Of a stretch of 64,000 nucleotides of DNA, positions 40,269 to 50,499 are shown in pieces. Position numbers and translations under genes: made by a program. The notes under the pieces are model-generated. The model was not told the DNA's origin. It searched no databases and worked only from the letters and a program-made list of their open reading frames with translations. This stretch comes from an uncultured Chitinophagaceae bacterium (GTDB lineage Bacteria; Bacteroidota; Bacteroidia; Chitinophagales; Chitinophagaceae). Positions within the stretch are counted from its first letter, which is position 1; every line of letters begins with the position of its first letter. The stretch lies in contig CALMYJ010000005.1 of assembly GCA_937873715.1 (NCBI GenBank), positions 310,001 to 374,000 of the forward strand, read 5' to 3'.

Positions 40269-41381
40269 TTATTGACCGCTGCTGCCTACTATCATAAACA
40301 CATAATCTTCCATTTTCTTTACCTGCTGCACCCTATCCATACCTTTAAGGCTGTTGCCTGCTGGTATTTTAATATTTTGTTTAGTGGAATCTTTTTTTAC
40401 TTCATCCAGCAGCTTGAAAATGTTTTTTGATTTGGCAGCATATACCACACCATCCGATTTGGCATCTTTGGCAGTAATGATGCCGATGATTTCACCATTT
40501 TGGCTGATTACCGGCCCGCCGCTATTACCGGGATTGGCAGATACGGTAAGCTGGTAAGCAGTAGAGTCGCCGTCGTTGCCCGATTTAGCACTCACATAAC
40601 CTTCACCGTAAACAATTTCATTGCGAGGAAAACCTAATGTAAAAAATTGTTCGCCCAGGTCGGAATTAGTTTTTCGTACACTATAGGGCAGGTTGGTAAT
40701 TGTTTTGTAACTGGTATCGGTAATTTTAAGAATAGCCAGGTCTACCGTGGCATCTGTAAAAAGAACAGCGGCGCTATAATAATCACCCTTATTGCTTTTT
40801 ACATAAATGTTTTTCATTTTGCTGATAACATGAGCATTGGTTACAAGGTAACCCTTGCCATCAATTAAAAAGCCGGTACCGGTAAAGTCTGCTTTAGGTT
40901 CAATTTTAACGGGAGCAGCAGGTACATGATGGCTTGTTGATTTGCTTTTGAGCGTAGATACTTCCCTGTTAGTTTTATTGATTTCTTTAACCAGGTATTT
41001 ATAACTGTCGCTGTATTTAGTTGTAAATGTAAGGGTAAGCCCAAGGGTAAGCAGGGAGATGAAACCGGCAATAGAAGCTGCAACAGCCATATTACGTTTA
41101 TACTTATTCCACAGGAATACTACTTTGGCTTTACCTTTTAGCTTAGGTTCGTGTATTACGCCTTCGGCCATTAATTTGGCTTCAGTTTCATGGAGCAGGT
41201 GTTTAAAATTACGGGCAGCACCATATTTTTCGAGTCCCTGCAAAAAATAGCTATGCTCAACCACCAGTTGGTCAACTTCAGGGTTGGTTTTGCGGAGTTC
41301 TTCAAAAAACGAACGTTCCTGGGGCGACATTTCGCCGCTCATATACCTTTCAATAGCTTCCAGCATTACAATTTCATCCAT
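40269..41381 (-). CDS. Anti-sigma-like membrane protein fused to trypsin-like serine protease
   Basis: A 370-residue single-pass protein. The cytoplasmic part, residues 1-95 (MLEAIERYMSGEMSPQERSFFEELRKTNPEV), resembles anti-sigma N-termini without zinc ligands. One membrane helix is at about 98-120, then a short coiled linker, then a periplasmic S1C/trypsin-like protease domain from about 163: His184 in VTNAHVI, Asp214 in TVDLAIL and Ser287 in ANPGNSGGPV make a complete triad. No PDZ domain follows. It lies 5 bases downstream of an ECF sigma gene, so it is probably its regulator, with the protease domain on the sensing side. That coupling is inferred. Confidence 0.88.
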   Translation of the reverse strand: MDEIVMLEAIERYMSGEMSPQERSFFEELRKTNPEVDQLVVEHSYFLQGLEKYGAARNFKHLLHETEAKLMAEGVIHEPKLKGKAKVVFLWNKYKRNMAVAASIAGFISLLTLGLTLTFTTKYSDSYKYLVKEINKTNREVSTLKSKSTSHHVPAAPVKIEPKADFTGTGFLIDGKGYLVTNAHVISKMKNIYVKSNKGDYYSAAVLFTDATVDLAILKITDTSYKTITNLPYSVRKTNSDLGEQFFTLGFPRNEIVYGEGYVSAKSGNDGDSTAYQLTVSANPGNSGGPVISQNGEIIGIITAKDAKSDGVVYAAKSKNIFKLLDEVKKDSTKQNIKIPAGNSLKGMDRVQQVKKMEDYVFMIVGSSGQ

Positions 41382-41386
41382 AACCC

Positions 41387-41950
41387 TCAGGTGTTTTTAT
41401 ATTGTGCAAAAAACAGTTTCTTCAAGCGCACCAGGCATTTATATTTCTGAGTTTTAGCATTATCGGCATTGGTGTATCCAAACTCCCCTGCGATATCCAT
41501 CATGCTTTTCTTTTGCAAATAATACGCATCAAGCAGGCTTTTACAGGGTTCGCCAATTTTGCCTAAGGCCTGTTCCATCAGCAAAAACTCGGTGTTCTTT
41601 TTTTCATGCTCTTCCAGTTCTTCCTCTACCGGTACAATATCTTCCATACTTTCTACCTGTGTGGTAAAGCGGTTGAGCTGTTGTAGCCTTTTTAGCCATA
41701 AACGCCTGCATACCGAGTATACATAGGTTTTTATCTGGCAGCTTAGCGAAAAGGAAGGGTCTTTCGACTTTTCGTACAGCACCACCATAGCTTCCTGGAA
41801 AATATCCCTGGCTTCATCTACCGAGCCATTATTATTAAGTATAAACGACTGAATAATATTGTAATTATCCCGGTAAATAGCTTCTACAGCCTCTTTGTCG
41901 CTTTGTGCCAGTCCTTTCAGCAATAATTGATCTTTCTCAGAAATACTCAC
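41387..41950 (-). CDS. ECF-type RNA polymerase sigma factor
   Basis: A 187-residue sigma-70 family protein. Region 2 spans about residues 18-95 (AVEAIYRDNYNIIQSFILNNNGSVDEARDIFQEAMVVLYEKSKD, IKTYVYSVCRRLWLKRL). Region 4 is at about 130-185 (EPCKSLLDAYYLQKKSMMDIAGEFGYTNADNAKTQKYKCLVRLKKL). The wording of region 4 matches the Bacteroidota subgroup of compact sigma factors rather than the one at 23449. It is the first gene of a two-gene operon with the anti-sigma/protease fusion. ATG at 41950 follows a 133-base divergent gap to the small lipoprotein gene. Confidence 0.92.
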   Translation of the reverse strand: MSISEKDQLLLKGLAQSDKEAVEAIYRDNYNIIQSFILNNNGSVDEARDIFQEAMVVLYEKSKDPSFSLSCQIKTYVYSVCRRLWLKRLQQLNRFTTQVESMEDIVPVEEELEEHEKKNTEFLLMEQALGKIGEPCKSLLDAYYLQKKSMMDIAGEFGYTNADNAKTQKYKCLVRLKKLFFAQYKNT

Positions 41951-42083: not shown

Positions 42084-42266
42084 ATGAAAAAAGTACTTTT
42101 CGTTTTCGCTATCGCTGCCGCTTTCGCAGCTTGCTCTTCTTCTGAAACTCCTGCTACTGAAGAAACTCCGGTAGTTGATACAGTTGTTGCTCCTGCTGCT
42201 GATACAACTGCTCCTGCTGCTGCTGATACAACTGCCCCAGCTGCTGCTGATACTACAGCTAAATAA
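42084..42266 (+). CDS. Small Ala/Thr/Pro-rich repeat lipoprotein
   Basis: A 60-residue lipoprotein: MKKVLFVFAIAAAFAAC with lipobox AAC (Cys17), then a mature part of only 44 residues. The end is made of tandem units of about eight residues, ADTTAPAA repeated, written in the DNA as about 24-base repeats at 42197-42255. Alanine is almost always GCT, a bias unlike the neighbours and typical of strongly expressed genes. No enzymatic domain. An envelope spacer or structural lipoprotein is plausible but unproven. Divergent from the sigma operon, of which it could be a target. Confidence 0.85.
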   Translation: MKKVLFVFAIAAAFAACSSSETPATEETPVVDTVVAPAADTTAPAAADTTAPAAADTTAK

Positions 42267-42355
42267 GTAATCAAATCATACAACCGGCTATTACGCTTGC
42301 AATTTTCTGCCGGTTCTATATAAAGATTTTTCATATGGCAAGCAATCGTTAAAGT

Positions 42356-42384
42356 CGCCCCTGTTCACAGGGGCGTCTCTATTT
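42356..42384 (+). terminator. Terminator of the small lipoprotein gene
   Basis: CGCCCCTG (42356-42363) and CAGGGGCG (42368-42375) pair around the tetraloop TTCA; TCTCTATTT follows. It isolates the lipoprotein gene from the pheA leader. The bases from here to 42468 are AT-rich and hold nothing else that I recognise. Confidence 0.78.
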
Positions 42385-42468
42385 AATGTTATATAGGTGT
42401 ATGTATGGCTTTTGAGGCATAACTTTAAAAAATTGTCAATAAAATTGAAGATTAATTGAAAAAATTTA

Positions 42469-42499
42469 TTGGCTGTTCCGCTAATCTTTACTACTTTCG
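42469..42499 (+). promoter_or_regulatory. Promoter of the aromatic amino acid operon (TTG - 20 - TACTTTCG)
   Basis: TTG at 42469-42471 and TACTTTCG at 42492-42499 are separated by 20 bases, matching the Bacteroidota -33/-7 layout with the TAnnTTCG variant. A start near 42504-42506 falls only a few bases before the leader-peptide ATG at 42508. Confidence 0.6.
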
Positions 42500-42507
42500 A
42501 GCCCGAA

Positions 42508-42585
42508 ATGAAAAGCACAGTAACATACACCCGATTTTATTTTGGTTACTATTTTTTTAGTACCACGCCGGGTGTCTTTTGTTAA
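42508..42585 (+). CDS. pheL: Phe/Tyr-rich leader peptide of the pheA attenuator
   Basis: ATG to TAA encodes 25 residues. Residues 10-17 read FYFGYYFF; in total five are Phe (10, 12, 16, 17, 24) and four Tyr (7, 11, 14, 15), 36 percent aromatic. It lies directly before a terminator that precedes pheA, the first gene of an operon making Phe and Tyr. In ribosome-mediated attenuation, stalling at scarce-amino-acid codons in such a peptide prevents termination. Codons 20-22 (ACG CCG GGT) contain the GCCGGG segment that can form the antiterminator. A 5' leader of only a few bases suggests near-leaderless translation. The symbol is by analogy with E. coli pheL; it is not a homologue by descent as far as can be seen. 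Confidence 0.85.
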   Translation: MKSTVTYTRFYFGYYFFSTTPGVFC

Positions 42586-42631
42586 GCGGTATACAACAAT
42601 ATTAACGACTTACATACAAAGGATTCCCGGC
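42567..42631 (+). promoter_or_regulatory. Antiterminator pairing of the pheA attenuator
   Basis: GCCGGG at 42567-42572, inside codons 20-22 of the leader peptide, can pair with CCCGGC at 42626-42631, the 5' arm of the terminator. It duplicates the GCCGGG of the terminator's 3' arm, so the two structures exclude each other. A ribosome stalled at Tyr/Phe codons 10-15 would leave 42567 free; one at the stop codon would cover it. Confidence 0.7.
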
Positions 42632-42652
42632 TAATCGGCCGGGATTTTTTTT
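42625..42652 (+). terminator. Attenuator terminator in front of pheA
   Basis: TCCCGGC (42625-42631) pairs with GCCGGGA (42638-42644) around loop TAATCG, followed by eight T (42645-42652). It ends six bases before the pheA ATG at 42659, where an ordinary terminator for the distant lipoprotein gene, already served by its own hairpin, makes no sense. Confidence 0.85.
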
Positions 42653-42658
42653 GCATAT

Positions 42659-43489
42659 ATGGCAACACAGGTATCCATACAGGGTTTTGAGGGCAGCTTT
42701 CACCAGGAAGCCGCCAGGCATTTTTTTGGAAAAGATGTAGCAGTTGTTTGCTGCTCCACTTTCAGGGAAGTGGTAAAAATTGCTTCTAATAAAAAAGAAA
42801 GTGATGGCGGTGTGATGGCCATTGAAAATTCCATTGCCGGCAGCATTTTACCCAACTATAATTTGCTGCAAAAAAGCAACCTGGTGATAGTGGGCGAAGT
42901 ATACCTGCAAATCAGGCAAAACCTGCTGGTAAATCCCGGGGTGCAGCTTCAAGATATACGGGAAGTACACTCTCACCACATGGCTATCCAGCAATGCCTC
43001 GATTATCTTGATAAATACAACTGGCGGCTGGTGGAAACTGAAGATACAGCCCTTAGTGCCAAACATATTCATAAGCACCACAGCAAACATATTGCTGCTA
43101 TTGCCAGCAGGCTGGCAGCCGAAATATACCAGTTGGAAGTGCTGGCGCCCAACATACATACTTTAAAAAATAACTATACCCGGTTTTTAATTTTACAAAG
43201 AGCAGATGCAGCGCAGGAGGTTAGCGGTGCTAATAAAGCCACGGTAAACTTTAATACCGATCACTCCCGTGGAAGCCTTGCCAAAGTATTAACCGGAATT
43301 GCAGATGCAGGCATTAATTTAAGCAAGCTGCAAAGCATGCCCATACCCGGCAGTGATTTTAAATATTCCTTTCATGCCGATTTGGAATTTGATTCCAAAG
43401 AGCAGCTTGATGCAGCGCTGAAAGATGTAAAAAATAAAACAGAAGCATTAAAGTTGTTGGGCGTATATAAAAACGGGAAGATTAAATAA
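42659..43489 (+). CDS. pheA: Prephenate dehydratase
   Basis: PheA decarboxylates and dehydrates prephenate to phenylpyruvate, the committed step to Phe. The 276-residue protein has the dehydratase domain at residues 1-180 (VSIQGFEGSFHQEAARHFFG, GVMAIENSIAGSILPNYNLL, REVHSHHMAIQQC, DTALSAK, and the catalytic motif NNYTRF with TRF at 174-176) and a C-terminal ACT domain at about 190-270 (GSLAKVLTGIADAGINLSKLQSMPIPG), the Phe-sensing part. No chorismate mutase domain is fused; that activity is on the DAHP synthase further down. First gene after the attenuator. Confidence 0.96.
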   Translation: MATQVSIQGFEGSFHQEAARHFFGKDVAVVCCSTFREVVKIASNKKESDGGVMAIENSIAGSILPNYNLLQKSNLVIVGEVYLQIRQNLLVNPGVQLQDIREVHSHHMAIQQCLDYLDKYNWRLVETEDTALSAKHIHKHHSKHIAAIASRLAAEIYQLEVLAPNIHTLKNNYTRFLILQRADAAQEVSGANKATVNFNTDHSRGSLAKVLTGIADAGINLSKLQSMPIPGSDFKYSFHADLEFDSKEQLDAALKDVKNKTEALKLLGVYKNGKIK

Positions 43490-43585: not shown

Positions 43586-44779
43586 ATGGAAACAGCAAAA
43601 AGATTAGAAGGCATTGGTGAATACTACTTCTCTCAAAAACTTAGAGAGATTGATGCGATGAATAAAGCCGGAAAGCAGGTGATTAACCTGGGCATTGGCA
43701 GTCCAGATTTACCACCACACCCGGATGTAATTAAAACATTGCATGAAGAAGCGATGAAGCCCAACCAGCATGCCTACCAAAGCTATAAGGGCAGCCCGGT
43801 GTTGAGAAATGCCATTGCCCACTGGTATAAAAAATGGTATGCCGTTGAACTGAACCCGGATACGGAAATATTGCCCCTTATTGGCAGTAAGGAAGGGATT
43901 ATGCATATCTGCATGACGTATCTTGAAGAAGACACAGCAGTACTGGTGCCCAACCCGGGGTACCCTACTTATGCCAGTGCTTTGAAAATTTCAGGCGCAG
44001 CACCGTTATACTACGATCTTAAAAAAGAAAATAATTACTATCCCGATTTTACCCAAATGGAAAGCTTAGTAGAGCAGGGAACAAAAAATTATACAAAAGG
44101 GGTAAAGCTGCTTTTTGTGAATTATCCCCAAATGCCAACAGGTCAGTTGCCAACAAAAGCCATGTTTGAGCAGTTGGTAGCCTTTGCAAAAAGGCATAAC
44201 ATTTTACTGGTACATGATAATCCTTATAGTTTCATTTTGAATGATAGCCCTATGAGTTTGCTGAGTGTAGCTGGGGCAAAAGAAGTGGCGGTTGAATTAA
44301 ATTCATTGAGCAAATCGCACAATATGGCCGGCTGGAGAGTGGGTATGCTGGTGGGTGCCAAAGATAAGATTGATGAAGTGCTACGCTTTAAAAGTAATAT
44401 GGACAGCGGCATGTTTTTACCCCTGCAGTTTGCGGCGGCAAAAGCCCTTGAGCTTGGGCAGCCCTGGCATGATGAAGTAAATAAAGTGTACCGGGCAAGA
44501 AGGGAAAAAGTATTTGAACTTTTAAGCTTGCTGGATTGTACGTTCGATACTACACAGGCTGGCATGTTTGTATGGGCAGCCATACCCTCAAAGTACAAGG
44601 ATGGGTTTGAACTGAGCGATAAAGTATTGCATGAAGCGAATGTGTTCATCACACCGGGTGGCATATTTGGCAGTGCCGGCAACGCTTTTGTACGGGTAAG
44701 CCTGTGCAGCCCGGAACAGCAATTTGAAGCGGCAATTAAAAGGATTAAAGAATCTGTAGTGAATAAGCAGCATGTTTAA
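43586..44779 (+). CDS. Class I/II aminotransferase, probable aromatic/aspartate aminotransferase
   Basis: A 397-residue fold type I PLP enzyme likely to transaminate phenylpyruvate and hydroxyphenylpyruvate (or prephenate) in this operon. Visible features: VINLGIGSPDLPPHPDVI, YKGSPVLRNAIAHWY, VPNPGYPTYASAL, HDNPYS and the PLP Lys in ELNSLSKSHNMAGWRVGMLVG, plus FVRVSLC near the end. The usual NPTG motif reads NYPQMPTG, with Met in place of the Asn that normally contacts PLP. Its last codons overlap the tyrA start by 8 bases, so the two are coupled. Position between pheA and tyrA argues for an aromatic substrate; LL-DAP or aspartate aminotransferase remain possible. Confidence 0.88.
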   Translation: METAKRLEGIGEYYFSQKLREIDAMNKAGKQVINLGIGSPDLPPHPDVIKTLHEEAMKPNQHAYQSYKGSPVLRNAIAHWYKKWYAVELNPDTEILPLIGSKEGIMHICMTYLEEDTAVLVPNPGYPTYASALKISGAAPLYYDLKKENNYYPDFTQMESLVEQGTKNYTKGVKLLFVNYPQMPTGQLPTKAMFEQLVAFAKRHNILLVHDNPYSFILNDSPMSLLSVAGAKEVAVELNSLSKSHNMAGWRVGMLVGAKDKIDEVLRFKSNMDSGMFLPLQFAAAKALELGQPWHDEVNKVYRARREKVFELLSLLDCTFDTTQAGMFVWAAIPSKYKDGFELSDKVLHEANVFITPGGIFGSAGNAFVRVSLCSPEQQFEAAIKRIKESVVNKQHV

Positions 44780-45620
44780 TACAGTTACTATAGTAGGCGT
44801 AGGTTTAATAGGCGGTTCATTTGCACTGGCGCTTAAAGAAAAAGGTTTTGCAAAAAAAATAATAGGTGTTGGCCGGGCTCAGGCCAGCGTTGATAAGGCA
44901 AAAGCGCTTGGACTGATAGATGCCTCCATGCCTTTGGAAGAAGCGGTTGCACAAAGTGATTTGATTTATATCTCTATACCGGTAGATGCCACACTGCCTG
45001 TAATGCAGCGGGTGATGGATATGGTAAACGAAAAGCAAATTGTAGTGGATGCAGGTTCAACTAAATTTGCATTGTGCAATATGCTGAAGGAGCATCCCAT
45101 GCGTAGCCGTTTTGTAGCTACACACCCAATGTGGGGTACCGAGCACAGCGGGCCTGAAGCGGCAGTACGTGGCGCTTTTGCAGGCCGTGCCTGTGTGATT
45201 TGTGAAAAAGAAAAAAGTGATGCGGTTGCTGTGGAAAAAATAGAAGCCCTATATAAAGCCCTTGGCATGCATATGGTGTATATGGGAGCAGAAAGCCATG
45301 ATATACATGCGGCTTATGTAAGTCATATATCACATATCACATCTTTTGCTTTGGCCAATACAGTGCTCGAAAAAGAAAGAGAAGAAGATGCCATTTTTGA
45401 ATTAGCCGGTGGTGGTTTTGAAAGTACGGTGCGTTTGGCAAAAAGTAACCCGGCTATGTGGGCACCCATATTTATGCAAAACAGGGAAAATGTACTGGAT
45501 GTATTGAACGAACATATCAGCCAGTTAAGAAAATTTAAAGCCAGCCTGGAAAAAGAGAACTGGGAATATTTAACTGAGCTAATGGAAAATGCCAATAAAA
45601 TTAGAAAGATTTTAAAGTAA
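44772..45620 (+). CDS. tyrA: Prephenate dehydrogenase
   Basis: TyrA oxidatively decarboxylates prephenate to 4-hydroxyphenylpyruvate with NAD(P). The 282-residue protein begins with the nucleotide fold TVTIVGVGLIGGSFALALKEKG, then YISIPVDATLPVM, VVDAGSTKFALC, FVATHPMWGTEHSGPEAA and SHDIHAAYVSHISHITSFALANTV with the catalytic His region (THPM and HISH), and FELAGGGFESTVRLAKSNPAMW. No ACT or chorismate mutase domain is attached. It overlaps the aminotransferase gene by 8 bases. The next 363 bases contain only a gene remnant before the DAHP synthase gene. Confidence 0.96.
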   Translation: MFNTVTIVGVGLIGGSFALALKEKGFAKKIIGVGRAQASVDKAKALGLIDASMPLEEAVAQSDLIYISIPVDATLPVMQRVMDMVNEKQIVVDAGSTKFALCNMLKEHPMRSRFVATHPMWGTEHSGPEAAVRGAFAGRACVICEKEKSDAVAVEKIEALYKALGMHMVYMGAESHDIHAAYVSHISHITSFALANTVLEKEREEDAIFELAGGGFESTVRLAKSNPAMWAPIFMQNRENVLDVLNEHISQLRKFKASLEKENWEYLTELMENANKIRKILK

Positions 45621-45983: not shown

Positions 45984-47072
45984 ATGCAAACACAATTAAC
46001 CAATATGAAAGAAGTGATGCAGGAAAAATGGAATAAACGTCCATTAGTCATCAGCGGCCCATGCAGCGCCGAAACAGAAGCACAAGTGCTCGAAACAGCC
46101 GCAAGGCTGGCTAAAACAGGTAAGGTAGATGTACTGCGTGCCGGTATATGGAAGCCCCGTACCAAGCCGGGATTATTTGAAGGTATCGGCACAAAGGGTT
46201 TGCCCTGGCTGCTGCAGGCCAAGAAACTAACGGGACTGCCTACCACTGTAGAAGTAGCTACGGCAAAGCATGTGGAAGATGCTTTACAATTTGATGTAGA
46301 TATGCTTTGGATTGGCGCCCGTACCACCGTTAACCCTTTTAGTGTACAGGAAGTGGCCGATGCCCTGCGTGGCGTGGATATTCCCGTGCTCATTAAAAAT
46401 CCCATCAATGCCGATTTGGAACTGTGGACAGGTGGTATTGAAAGGGTGCAAAAAGCAGGCATCAAACAGGTAGGTATGATACACCGTGGTTTTTCTAACT
46501 ACGGCAATACCGAATACCGCAATGCACCTATGTGGCACCTGCCTATAGAAATGAAACGCAGGTTCCCCGATATGAAACTCATTTGCGATCCATCCCATAT
46601 TTGCGGCAACAGGCACATGCTGCAGGCGGTGGCGCAAAAAAGTATCGACCTCGATTTTGACGGCATCATGGTAGAAAGCCATATCGACCCTGATAATGCT
46701 TGGAGCGATGCCAAGCAACAAATTACCCCTGAAGTATTAGCCGAAATGATCGACGCTATCAAATGGCGTAATGAAAATACCGACCAGCAGGAATTTTTAA
46801 ATGCACTGGCCAAACTGCGTGAGCAAATCAATCATATAGATGATGAACTGATTACCCTGCTGGGCCAGCGTATGAAGATTGCAGATAAAATTGGTGAATA
46901 CAAAAGAGATAATAATATCACCATCCTGCAAACCAACCGCTGGAACGAAATCCTGGACAAAGCCTACAACAGGGGCGATAAAGTGGGACTGAGCCGTGAA
47001 TTTGTTACCAAGTATTTCGATGCTGTGCATCTTGAAAGTATTAATCATCAAAACAAAGTGATGAACAGTTAA
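45984..47072 (+). CDS. Bifunctional DAHP synthase/chorismate mutase
   Basis: A 362-residue fusion that performs the first shikimate-pathway step (PEP plus erythrose 4-phosphate to DAHP) and the branch step chorismate to prephenate. The type I-beta DAHP synthase domain covers about residues 1-260: VISGPCSAETEAQVLETA, LRAGIWKPRTKPGLFEGIG, WIGARTTVNPFSVQEVADAL, IKNPINADLELW, CDPSHICGNRHM, DGIMVESHIDP. The chorismate mutase (type II, AroQ) helix bundle covers about 268-355 (LREQINHIDDELITLLGQRMKIADKIGEYKRDNNI). It supplies prephenate for pheA and tyrA upstream. No promoter box was recognised before it. Confidence 0.96.
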   Translation: MQTQLTNMKEVMQEKWNKRPLVISGPCSAETEAQVLETAARLAKTGKVDVLRAGIWKPRTKPGLFEGIGTKGLPWLLQAKKLTGLPTTVEVATAKHVEDALQFDVDMLWIGARTTVNPFSVQEVADALRGVDIPVLIKNPINADLELWTGGIERVQKAGIKQVGMIHRGFSNYGNTEYRNAPMWHLPIEMKRRFPDMKLICDPSHICGNRHMLQAVAQKSIDLDFDGIMVESHIDPDNAWSDAKQQITPEVLAEMIDAIKWRNENTDQQEFLNALAKLREQINHIDDELITLLGQRMKIADKIGEYKRDNNITILQTNRWNEILDKAYNRGDKVGLSREFVTKYFDAVHLESINHQNKVMNS

Positions 47073-47132: not shown

Positions 47133-48188
47133 GTGGCTTTACAACAAGTTGACTATACCATATCGGGCAAAACAGTATCGTATTATTTCGATGCTGGTTT
47201 TGCATACCTCGAAAATATTGTATCAAAGGAAAAAACTATACTCGTTACCGATGAACATTTGTATGCCGCACAGGCTTCAAAATTTGAAGGCTGGCGCACC
47301 ATTATAATAAAAGCAGGAGAGGAGTATAAGCAGCAGGCTGCTGTAGATGATATCATCCGCCAGCTGATTGAACTGGAAGCCGACCGAAATACATTTATCG
47401 TTGGCGTTGGTGGAGGGGTGGTTACCGATATTACCGGCTATACCGCCAGTGTGTATATGCGTGGGTTAAAATTTGGTTTTGTGCCTACTACAGTACTGGC
47501 AATGGTAGATGCAGCTATTGGTGGCAAAAATGGCGTGGATGTGGGCGTGTACAAAAATCTTGTAGGCGTAATTAAGCAGCCGTCATTTTTATTATTCGAT
47601 TATTCATTATTGCAATCGCTGCCACAGGCACAGTGGATAAATGGTTTTGCAGAAGTGATTAAGCATGCCTGTATCAGGGATGCAAACTTGTTTGCATTAC
47701 TGGAGCAACATTGCCTTGATGATTTTCAGCAGGATACTGCTTTGATGGCCCAACTGATTGAAAAAAATGTACACATCAAAACCAGTCTTGTGGCTGCAGA
47801 TGAATTGGAGCAAAACGAAAGAAGGCTGCTCAACTTCGGGCACACCCTGGGCCACGCTATTGAAAATATTTACCAGTTGCCGCATGGCCATGCTGTAAGT
47901 ATTGGTATGATGGCTGCCTGTGCCTTTTCTGAAGCAATTACCGGGTTTGCCGCTGCCGATACACTGCGTATTGAACAGTTAATTGAAAAATATCAACTGC
48001 CCACTTCTATCCAGTTTGACAGGGATAAAGTATGGAGCCTTTTGAAATTAGACAAGAAAAGAATGAGCAGCGACATGAATTTTATTTTGCTCAAAAGTAT
48101 TGGAGAAGGCATAGTACACAAAATGCCTTTAACGCAATTACAACATTTAATTACCGAACGTGTTGCCGCTACTATGGCAAAAGCCTGA
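47133..48188 (+). CDS. aroB: 3-Dehydroquinate synthase
   Basis: AroB cyclises DAHP to 3-dehydroquinate with NAD and a divalent metal. In the 351-residue protein, FIVGVGGGVVTDITGYTASVYMRGLKFGFVPTTVLAMVDAAIGGKNGVDV is the NAD-binding and substrate region, and metal ligands lie in NGFAEVIKHACI (Glu), NFGHTLGHAIEN (His) and LPHGHAVSIGM (His). GTG at 47133 gives the usual short N-terminal strand. It starts 60 bases after the DAHP synthase gene and ends 5 bases before aroA. Confidence 0.96.
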   Translation: MALQQVDYTISGKTVSYYFDAGFAYLENIVSKEKTILVTDEHLYAAQASKFEGWRTIIIKAGEEYKQQAAVDDIIRQLIELEADRNTFIVGVGGGVVTDITGYTASVYMRGLKFGFVPTTVLAMVDAAIGGKNGVDVGVYKNLVGVIKQPSFLLFDYSLLQSLPQAQWINGFAEVIKHACIRDANLFALLEQHCLDDFQQDTALMAQLIEKNVHIKTSLVAADELEQNERRLLNFGHTLGHAIENIYQLPHGHAVSIGMMAACAFSEAITGFAAADTLRIEQLIEKYQLPTSIQFDRDKVWSLLKLDKKRMSSDMNFILLKSIGEGIVHKMPLTQLQHLITERVAATMAKA

Positions 48189-48193
48189 AAAAT

Positions 48194-49489
48194 ATGATTG
48201 TTACCGTAAAACCTTCCTCGCTATCCGGCAATATCAATGCCCCCACTTCTAAAAGCTCTATGCAGCGTGCCTGCGCAGCAGCATTGTTGCACCAGGGACT
48301 AACGGTTATCCATAACCCCGGCCGCAGTAATGATGATAATGCCGCCCTGAGTGTTATACAAAACCTGGGTGCCGTTGTTACTGATCATGGTGGCAGTATC
48401 GATATTATCAGTAACGGCATACAGGCTGTAGGCAATGCCATGAACTGTGGCGAAAGCGGCCTCGGTATCAGGATGTTTACACCACTTGCGGCTTTAAGTG
48501 CCAATGCTATTCGCATTGATGGCACAGGCAGCCTTGTTACAAGGCCAATGGATTTTTTTGATGACATACTGCCGCAGTTAGGCGTATCCATTCAATCTAA
48601 CCAGGGTAAGCTGCCCCTGCAGATACAGGGACCGCTGCAACCAAAAGATATTACTATTGACGGCTCTTTAAGTTCACAGTTTTTAACCGGGTTGCTTTTT
48701 GCTTTTGGCAAAGCGGCTACTGCGCCGGTAACCATTACCGTTAGTAACCTTAAAAGTAAACCTTATATTGACCTTACCCTGCAGGTAATGCAGCATTTTG
48801 GGTATAAAGTAGAGAACAAAAATTTTGAATCATTTGTGGTGTATCCTGCAGCAGCAGCGGCCGGCACCATAACATACACCGTGGAGGGCGACTGGAGTGG
48901 TGGCGCATTTTTGTTAGTGGCAGGCGCCATTGCCGGCAGCATCACCGTTGCAGGATTAGATGTATTTTCAACCCAGGCCGATAAAGCTATTTTGAAAGCT
49001 TTGATGGATAGCGGCTGCGCCATATCTATTGAAGAAAAACAAATTCATATCGGGCCACCGGCCACTGGCAGCAGCGGGTTAAAAGCCTTTCATTTTAATG
49101 CAACGGATTGCCCTGATTTATTTCCGCCCTTAGTGGCGCTGGCTGCTTATTGCAGCGGTACCACTGTTATTGAAGGGGTAAATCGCCTGGCCCATAAAGA
49201 AAGCAACCGTGGGCTAACCCTGCAGGAAGAGTTTGCAAAAATGGGTGTTACGGTAAAATTGCAGGATGACCTTATGCTGGTGGAAGGCGGCAATGGCCTG
49301 CATGCGGCAACTGTTCATTCTCATCACGACCACCGCATAGCAATGGCCTGTGCCGTAGCAGCATTATGTGCCGATGGCGAAACGGTGATTGAAGAAGCGC
49401 AGGCAGTAAATAAATCGTATCCTGAGTTTTATAATCACATACAGCAATTAGGTGCAACTGTTACATCAGTAAAGGAGGCATTAAAATAA
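48194..49489 (+). CDS. aroA: 3-Phosphoshikimate 1-carboxyvinyltransferase (EPSP synthase)
   Basis: AroA joins shikimate 3-phosphate and PEP to EPSP. From ATG 48194 (MIVTVKPSSLSGNINAPTSKSSMQRACAAAL) the enzyme has 431 residues. Conserved elements include the KSSMQRA substrate loop, NCGESGLGIRMFTPLAAL, SQFLTGLLFA, RLAHKESNRGLTLQEEF and HHDHRIAMACAVAAL. A possible 54-residue extension upstream would overlap aroB and is rejected. GESGLGIR replaces the common GNSGTxxR, as in several Bacteroidota enzymes. It lies between aroB and aroC in the operon. Confidence 0.95.
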   Translation: MIVTVKPSSLSGNINAPTSKSSMQRACAAALLHQGLTVIHNPGRSNDDNAALSVIQNLGAVVTDHGGSIDIISNGIQAVGNAMNCGESGLGIRMFTPLAALSANAIRIDGTGSLVTRPMDFFDDILPQLGVSIQSNQGKLPLQIQGPLQPKDITIDGSLSSQFLTGLLFAFGKAATAPVTITVSNLKSKPYIDLTLQVMQHFGYKVENKNFESFVVYPAAAAAGTITYTVEGDWSGGAFLLVAGAIAGSITVAGLDVFSTQADKAILKALMDSGCAISIEEKQIHIGPPATGSSGLKAFHFNATDCPDLFPPLVALAAYCSGTTVIEGVNRLAHKESNRGLTLQEEFAKMGVTVKLQDDLMLVEGGNGLHAATVHSHHDHRIAMACAVAALCADGETVIEEAQAVNKSYPEFYNHIQQLGATVTSVKEALK

Positions 49490-49506: not shown

Positions 49507-50499
49507 ATGAACAGTTTTGGAAGAATTTTAAGGGTGTCCATTTTTGGTGAATCACACGGGCATTGCGTAGGAATAAATATCGACGGCTGCCCGGCGGGCC
49601 TGCCACTTAGTGTTGAAGATTTTACAACCGATATCGAAAGAAGAAAAGCTGGGGCTAAAGGCACCACACCAAGAAAAGAAGATGATATTCCCCGTATCAT
49701 GAACGGGGTGTTTAATGGTAAAACCACCGGTGCACCCATTACTATATTGTTCGATAATAATAATACCCGTAGCACCGATTACGAAAAACAAAGAGCGGTG
49801 CCCAGGCCCGGTCATGCCGATTTTGTAGCTACAAAAAAATTTGGCGGCTTTGAAGATTTCAGGGGAGGCGGGCATTTTAGCGGCAGGCTCACGGTGTGTT
49901 TGGTAGCGGCCGGGGTGGTGGCCAAAAAATTACTGAACCAGGTTAAAGTAAACGCCAGCATACTCGAAATTGGCGGTGAAAAAGATATTGAAGCCGGGTT
50001 ACAAAAAGCTATTGATCATAAAGACACTATTGGCGGTATTGTAGAATGCAGGGCAACCGGCTTACCCATCGGTATTGGTGAGCCTTTTTTCGATTCGGTG
50101 GAATCGGTGCTGAGCCATGCCGTATTTGCCATACCTGCTGTAAAAGGAATTGAGTTTGGCAGCGGCTTTGCAGCAGCTACCATGTTTGGCAGCGAGCACA
50201 ACGACTGGATTGAGGATATGAGTGGCACCACCCGTACCAATCACAGCGGCGGCGTTGTAGGCGGTATCAGTAATGGTAATGAGCTGGTGTTTCGTATTGC
50301 CATTAAGCCAACCTCATCTACACCTAAAGAGCAGCAAACACTTAATGTAGAAACAGGGGCGGTAGAAGCTTTTTCGGTAAAGGGCCGTCATGACCTTTGT
50401 ATTGCTTTAAGGGTGCCGGTGGTGCTGGAAGCGGTTACTGCATTTGTGCTGGCCGATTTGCTGCTGCTGGAACAGCGTATAGCCCGTGTGGTTAGTTGA
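49507..50499 (+). CDS. aroC: Chorismate synthase
   Basis: AroC eliminates phosphate from EPSP to give chorismate, using reduced FMN. The 330-residue protein contains the signature ESHGHCVGINIDGCPAGL, RRKAGAKGTTPRKEDD, AVPRPGHADFVATKKFGGFEDFRGGGHFSGRLT and NHSGGVVGGISNGNELVFRIAIKPTSS. It is some 20-30 residues shorter than the enterobacterial enzyme, as usual for this group. It is 17 bases after aroA and probably the last gene of the operon. Confidence 0.95.
   Translation: MNSFGRILRVSIFGESHGHCVGINIDGCPAGLPLSVEDFTTDIERRKAGAKGTTPRKEDDIPRIMNGVFNGKTTGAPITILFDNNNTRSTDYEKQRAVPRPGHADFVATKKFGGFEDFRGGGHFSGRLTVCLVAAGVVAKKLLNQVKVNASILEIGGEKDIEAGLQKAIDHKDTIGGIVECRATGLPIGIGEPFFDSVESVLSHAVFAIPAVKGIEFGSGFAAATMFGSEHNDWIEDMSGTTRTNHSGGVVGGISNGNELVFRIAIKPTSSTPKEQQTLNVETGAVEAFSVKGRHDLCIALRVPVVLEAVTAFVLADLLLLEQRIARVVS

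Follow-up and report, generated by a model that had tools for sequence, protein, structure and literature searches.

The window, a stretch of 64,000 nucleotides from an uncultured Chitinophagaceae bacterium, carries on its forward strand a seven-gene operon whose content covers the Phe, Tyr and shared pathway. Its first gene is pheA, encoding prephenate dehydratase (42659-43489), and behind it, in the same orientation, lie genes for a PLP-dependent aminotransferase (43586-44779), prephenate dehydrogenase (tyrA, 44772-45620), a DAHP synthase fused to chorismate mutase (45984-47072), 3-dehydroquinate synthase (aroB, 47133-48188), EPSP synthase (aroA, 48194-49489, its start inferred from the protein match) and chorismate synthase (aroC, 49507-50499). 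Among 35 same-genus genomes 19 have no pheA match (e.g. G004, G009, G011, G012 and G026), several of them being 99-100% complete; these absences suggest that members of the genus have often lost Phe synthesis.

On the other side of the region studied here, a small lipoprotein-like ORF with Ala/Thr repeats (42084-42266, forward strand) is followed by a terminator-like hairpin (42356-42375). Farther upstream, on the reverse strand, an ECF-type sigma factor gene (41387-41950) adjoins a gene (40269-41381) whose product carries an HtrA-like serine protease domain besides a probable membrane segment and a short N-terminal stretch. The pair (40269-41950) resembles a sigma/anti-sigma arrangement fused to a protease, the anti-sigma role being a guess.

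Just ahead of pheA, and on the same strand as all the elements described below, is a leader ORF (MKSTVTYTRFYFGYYFFSTTPGVFC) of 25 codons plus TAA (42508-42585), which is conserved in relatives. It contains five Phe and four Tyr codons, an enrichment for the end products of the operon such as an attenuator calls for, and its codons 10-17 form the sensor run FYFGYYFF. An intrinsic terminator (42625-42652) stands between this ORF and the first structural gene, again as in an attenuator. Its stem (42625-42632/42637-42644) reads TCCCGGC(T)/(G)GCCGGGA, with core strands TCCCGGC (42625-42631) and GCCGGGA (42638-42644) and the loop AATC, and the eight T that follow (42645-42652) end 6 nt before the pheA ATG (42659).

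Two further pairings compete with this terminator. Segment 3 (42609-42631), made of an extension, CTTACATACAAAGGAT, and the core CCCGGC (42626-42631), can pair with segment 4 to form the terminator (3:4) or with segment 2 to form an antiterminator (2:3). Segment 2 (42567-42586) lies inside the ORF; it begins with GCCGGGTGT (42567-42575), whose core GCCGGG (42567-42572) falls in leader codons 20-22, and its extension CTTTTGTTAAG (42576-42586) makes the antiterminator longer. The whole antiterminator comes to ~21 bp, CUUUUGUUAAG 3′ of the core also pairing with CUUACAUACAAAGGAU 5′ of the terminator. Segment 1, ACACCCG (42527-42533), pairs with CGGGTGT, the part of segment 2 reaching up to 42575, to give a 1:2 hairpin across the sensor codons that is present and stable in the window, as an attenuator requires, and would free the terminator. 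When the pieces were folded separately, the energies were -17.2 kcal/mol for 1:2, -26.5 for 2:3 and -17.5 for 3:4; the minimum free energy of 42469-42658 has z = -3.1, and 0/200 shuffles were as low.

The original prediction, which called this a complete attenuator, had described the 25-codon frame with its codon counts and sensor run, and a re-check of the sequence agrees; its coordinates for the TCCCGGC/GCCGGGA hairpin and eight T, six bases ahead of the pheA ATG, are also right. The alternative pairing that it proposed, GCCGGG with CCCGGC, is present and covaries (see below), but those 6 bp are only the core of the longer antiterminator. All the elements it named are there; what it overlooked is the 1:2 hairpin and the promoter.

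That promoter is predicted to be of the Bacteroidota sigma-A type (42469-42499), with TTG at 42469-42471, 20 bp, and TACTTTCG at 42492-42499. A search for an E. coli-type sigma-70 promoter gave none positioned to transcribe the leader, and the Bacteroidota-type box was found instead. Transcription is predicted to start at ~42504, leaving a 5′ UTR of ~4 nt ahead of the leader ATG. The arrangement recurs: a TAnnTT(T/C)G box ends 0-16 nt from the leader ATG, nearly always 4-10, in 89/97 leaders, while the adjoining 17-nt bin holds such a box in one leader only, and TTG lies 16-23 nt 5′ of the box in 77/87 leaders (15% background). In leaders of family f25 the box was not seen at the same distance from the ATG. 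According to a transcriptome report on Flavobacterium psychrophilum (PMC9723704), the box there occupies -12 to -5; combined with the box distances, this places the predicted start of most leader transcripts 0-6 nt 5′ of the ATG. Such a near-leaderless start would be unusual within the phylum: in F. johnsoniae the leader exceeds 10 nt in 87% of transcripts (PMC6847099), and leaderless mRNAs make up 5.5% in F. psychrophilum (PMC9723704).

We conclude that this is very probably a classical ribosome-mediated transcription attenuator of the pheA-aminotransferase-tyrA-aro operon, which would sense charged tRNA-Phe and tRNA-Tyr. To judge from the promoter position, transcription would begin a few bases 5′ of the leader ATG and the ribosome would load at a near-leaderless 5′ end. 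With ample Phe and Tyr, it would pass the F/Y codons and cover segment 2, or finish and let 1:2 form; either way the 3:4 terminator would fold and transcription would end at 42645-42652. With Phe or Tyr short, the ribosome would stall at codons 10-16, masking segment 1 and leaving segment 2 free to pair over ~21 bp with the emerging segment 3, so that segment 4 would stay single and polymerase would continue into pheA. Leader translation, stalling, termination and the amino acid response are all inferred here from sequence.

The placement of the sensor codons fits this stall-or-finish logic in a folding model that lets equilibrium stand for co-transcriptional kinetics and has the ribosome cover an assumed 15 nt 3′ of its P site. 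With the A site at codons 4-16 the antiterminator has a probability of 0.66-0.99, and from codon 17 on the terminator has 0.98, close to the original estimate that the geometry is right for codons 10-15 and marginal for 16-17. Modelled without a ribosome, 1:2 reaches 0.78 and the terminator 0.83. At equilibrium 1:2 is less stable than the free antiterminator, and 2:3 would win until segment 4 has been transcribed; an untranslated leader would therefore terminate only if 1:2 formed first.

Conservation of the module was measured with a simple test: an ATG frame with at least 6/9 residues F, Y or W, then a terminator. It was found in 95/98 pheA upstream regions, 96 of these 98 regions coming from Chitinophagaceae loci, and in 0/980 dinucleotide shuffles of the same regions and 0/563 tiles of the window, which rules out a chance T-rich ORF. 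Tiles of other loci gave 6/1652, and all six are true leaders at short loci, where the match begins early in the contig. A terminator lies 3′ of the leader in 97/98, with a T run after the hairpin likewise in 97/98. The leader is present at every same-genus pheA locus examined and, across 80 named genome records that include Niastella, Terrimonas, Flavihumibacter and Ferruginibacter, at 78/79 loci with enough upstream DNA. Among other families of the order, the module occurs at 40/41 loci of f19, 9/9 of f20, 3/7 of f13 and 0/3 of the others. In the rest of the class, f23 and f25 have the module, which was not found in f24 and f28; it was not seen at the examined loci from outside the class.

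The pairings were evaluated in an alignment of 90 distinct leaders. The terminator 3:4 helix is 96.4% paired, with 9/12 pairs changed on both sides and a covariation score of 0.235 versus 0.146 shuffled. The antiterminator is 88.4% paired, also with 9/12 pairs changed on both sides, and scores 0.127 versus 0.079 shuffled (0/500) and at most 0.052 when slid; the shuffle controls leave sequence relatedness in, while the slid controls keep phylogeny and stay low. At one antiterminator pair of the alignment, 106:136, G-C is found in 43 sequences and A-U in 29, and whole segments change in concert (leader/arm GCCAGGA/TCCTGGC in L066, GGCGGGA/TCCCGCC in L094 and CGAGAC/GTCTCG in L017). In the first set, each leader pairs better with its own arm than with swapped arms (-14.4 versus -13.3, 0/5000), and the same holds for 66 modules of diverged families (own arm -11.26 versus -8.03 kcal/mol for arms of other loci, 0/10000 permutations). 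Covariation thus backs the mutually exclusive antiterminator on which attenuation depends. Support for the 1:2 helix is moderate, making it the weakest-supported part: its covariation score is 0.240 versus 0.198 shuffled, and its double-change pair counts and pair types are not above shuffles. The original prediction had staked itself on conservation of the leader frame and of the alternative pairing in relatives, and both were found conserved, the pairing with covariation.

The sensor run holds both Phe and Tyr in 98/98 leaders checked, in line with the earlier suggestion that the leader senses the end products of both pheA and tyrA; a leader has on average 5.4 F and 3.7 Y. Where leaders share an aromatic codon, its second base changes (mostly F to Y) as often as its third base (0.234 versus 0.240). 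With F and Y swapping at the rate of silent changes, it is not the precise peptide that is conserved, and the interchange fits selection for either aromatic codon and not for peptide sequence.

This bears on a rival in which free Phe or Tyr binds and arrests the nascent leader peptide in the exit tunnel, much as Trp does with TnaC, and the RNA switch follows. Within the family the peptide can be recognised; it is short and hydrophobic, with repeated tails (such as PGMLLL and PGVFC). Yet the exchange of F and Y at the silent rate argues against peptide recognition, and outside the family the peptides are unrecognisable save for the F/Y run, sharing little beyond it (e.g. MIKGYFYGYYFFRS and MINRHFYFYFSFYFYPIR); the repeated tails are explained by the RNA, the KAY and MLLL codons making the 1:2 helix and UGUUGA the antiterminator. 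We regard nascent-peptide sensing as improbable. We give equally little credence to control that is mainly translational, in which the hairpin would hide the pheA start and the antiterminator expose it. In the window only 6 nt separate the T run from the pheA ATG, as such control would need, but the T run after the hairpin in 97/98 leaders speaks for termination, and many loci have ~50-150 nt between the hairpin and the beginning of the pheA match, too much for the hairpin to hide the start. Less probable still is a terminator hairpin that serves chiefly to keep upstream transcription out of pheA, with the F/Y frame arising incidentally from a T-rich stretch. The leader is indeed T-rich, and the terminator-like hairpin at 42356-42375 does sit 3′ of the upstream gene; as stated, however, this idea is refuted by composition-preserving shuffles, none of which reproduces the aromatic frame plus terminator (0/980, against 95/98 real regions), by the covariation of segment 2 with the terminator arm, and by a predicted promoter placed between the upstream terminator and the leader.

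Known RNA families do not account for the element. Against Rfam RF01859 (Phe_leader) the window scores 21 bits, with a gathering cut-off of 55, and a scan of 18 loci gave no family at its gathering cut-off. A T-box riboswitch had no match in 42300-42800 up to E = 5, nor at the gathering cut-off in the 18 loci, and for other riboswitches there was no Rfam match in the window region or those loci.

We searched the same genome for other leaders, taking the hisG, trpE, ilvD and homoserine dehydrogenase regions one at a time. A His leader (MKQITHIHHHHFLTNG; L209, G000:C13) and a Trp leader (MQQQIANTKNWWWQSV; L217, G000:C11), each with a terminator, lie 5′ of hisG and trpE, respectively, and have counterparts in relatives. 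Pairing is clear for the His leader (mean -10.1) and weak between Trp segments 2 and 3 (mean -7.6 versus -6.9 kcal/mol for cross-operon pairs), and the trp attenuator is therefore less certain than those of phe and his. A branched-chain leader was not found in the 10 kb upstream of the genome's own ilvD; in two relatives (L252 and L253), Ile/Val-rich leaders (MLKGKLQNDIFKIAVIIIAVVVIIIPGTHGVGNFI and MNNKQLSVILSIIISVVNIY) lie 5′ of ilvD, each then followed by a terminator-like hairpin. No Thr leader was found in one 1.5-kb stretch near the larger homoserine dehydrogenase gene, whose start is approximate.

The window itself has a single module, while 14/41 loci of family f19 have two leader-terminator modules in series 5′ of pheA (L171, L157, L162, L288, L290, L155, L293, L294 and L295 among them). 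By inspection, most of these tandem loci have a TTTG-type box just 5′ of the first module and not of the second, which suggests that one transcript passes two attenuators. In L157, L162, L167, L171, L288 and L290 the best partner of each leader is its own terminator; L155, L286, L289 and L293 are among several loci where this pairing test does not separate the modules.

Leader-peptide attenuation is a textbook mechanism, and the original prediction had likened the architecture to the pheL/hisL type. E. coli pheL, taken through the same analysis steps, gives the same anatomy: pheL-pheA shares with our locus a short ORF with a run of cognate codons, alternative pairing of the 3′ part of the leader, and the same target activity, and the distance from leader stop to terminator is 46 nt there and 39 here. 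The differences are equally clear. E. coli pheL senses Phe only and precedes pheA alone, with tyrA on the other strand, whereas here Phe and Tyr codons precede seven genes; unlike in E. coli, segment 2 lies inside the ORF and the predicted start is near-leaderless; and pheL scores 132 bits with RF01859, against 21 here.

The original prediction knew of no characterised example in Bacteroidota, and this holds in the open-access literature, although older comparative work by Lyubetsky and colleagues (cited in PMC4833913) may include the phylum. The accessible part of the 2021 F. psychrophilum transcriptome report (PMC9723704) suggests leader-peptide attenuation before amino acid operons and notes an uncharacterised 5′ element before pheA, conserved in Flavobacteriaceae and without an Rfam match; the anatomy, covariation and Phe/Tyr sensing of that element are not described in that part. 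In B. thetaiotaomicron, sORFs have been likened to leader peptides (PMC7366714). Leader ORFs whose first codon lies at the very 5′ end of the transcript or 1 nt away are found in S. meliloti trpL (PMC7298713) and C. glutamicum ilvL (PMC11857589), which belong to other phyla and concern other amino acids, whereas the near-leaderless start here is predicted from promoter position only. Tandem attenuators, with two leader ORFs in series before one operon, occur in Salmonella mgtCBR (PMC3641672); there mgtM and mgtP differ in their signals (ATP and proline), whereas both members of the f19 pairs are F/Y leaders before a biosynthetic operon.

The locus would add dual Phe/Tyr sensing, and together with the tandem loci it offers a set of naturally occurring single and double attenuators for comparison. 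We hold more tentatively, as a possibility somewhat short of even, that leader-peptide attenuation is a widespread layer of regulation in Bacteroidia (Phe/Tyr, His, Trp and branched-chain), working near-leaderless and without Shine-Dalgarno, with a dual run of interchangeable F/Y codons and, in one family, two same-signal attenuators whose action in series steepens the response.

Attenuation requires tight coupling of ribosome and RNA polymerase, classically helped by a Shine-Dalgarno start. Because Bacteroidota ribosomes show no Shine-Dalgarno pairing (PMC9976891), finding a conserved, covarying attenuator argues, on comparative grounds, that such coupling also operates in these bacteria. The predicted near-leaderless start suggests how coupling may be achieved there, and the attenuator offers a reporter for it. 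Our results also suggest a function for the unexplained conserved pheA element of Flavobacteriaceae. By comparative evidence, an E. coli-style device is conserved across many Bacteroidota.
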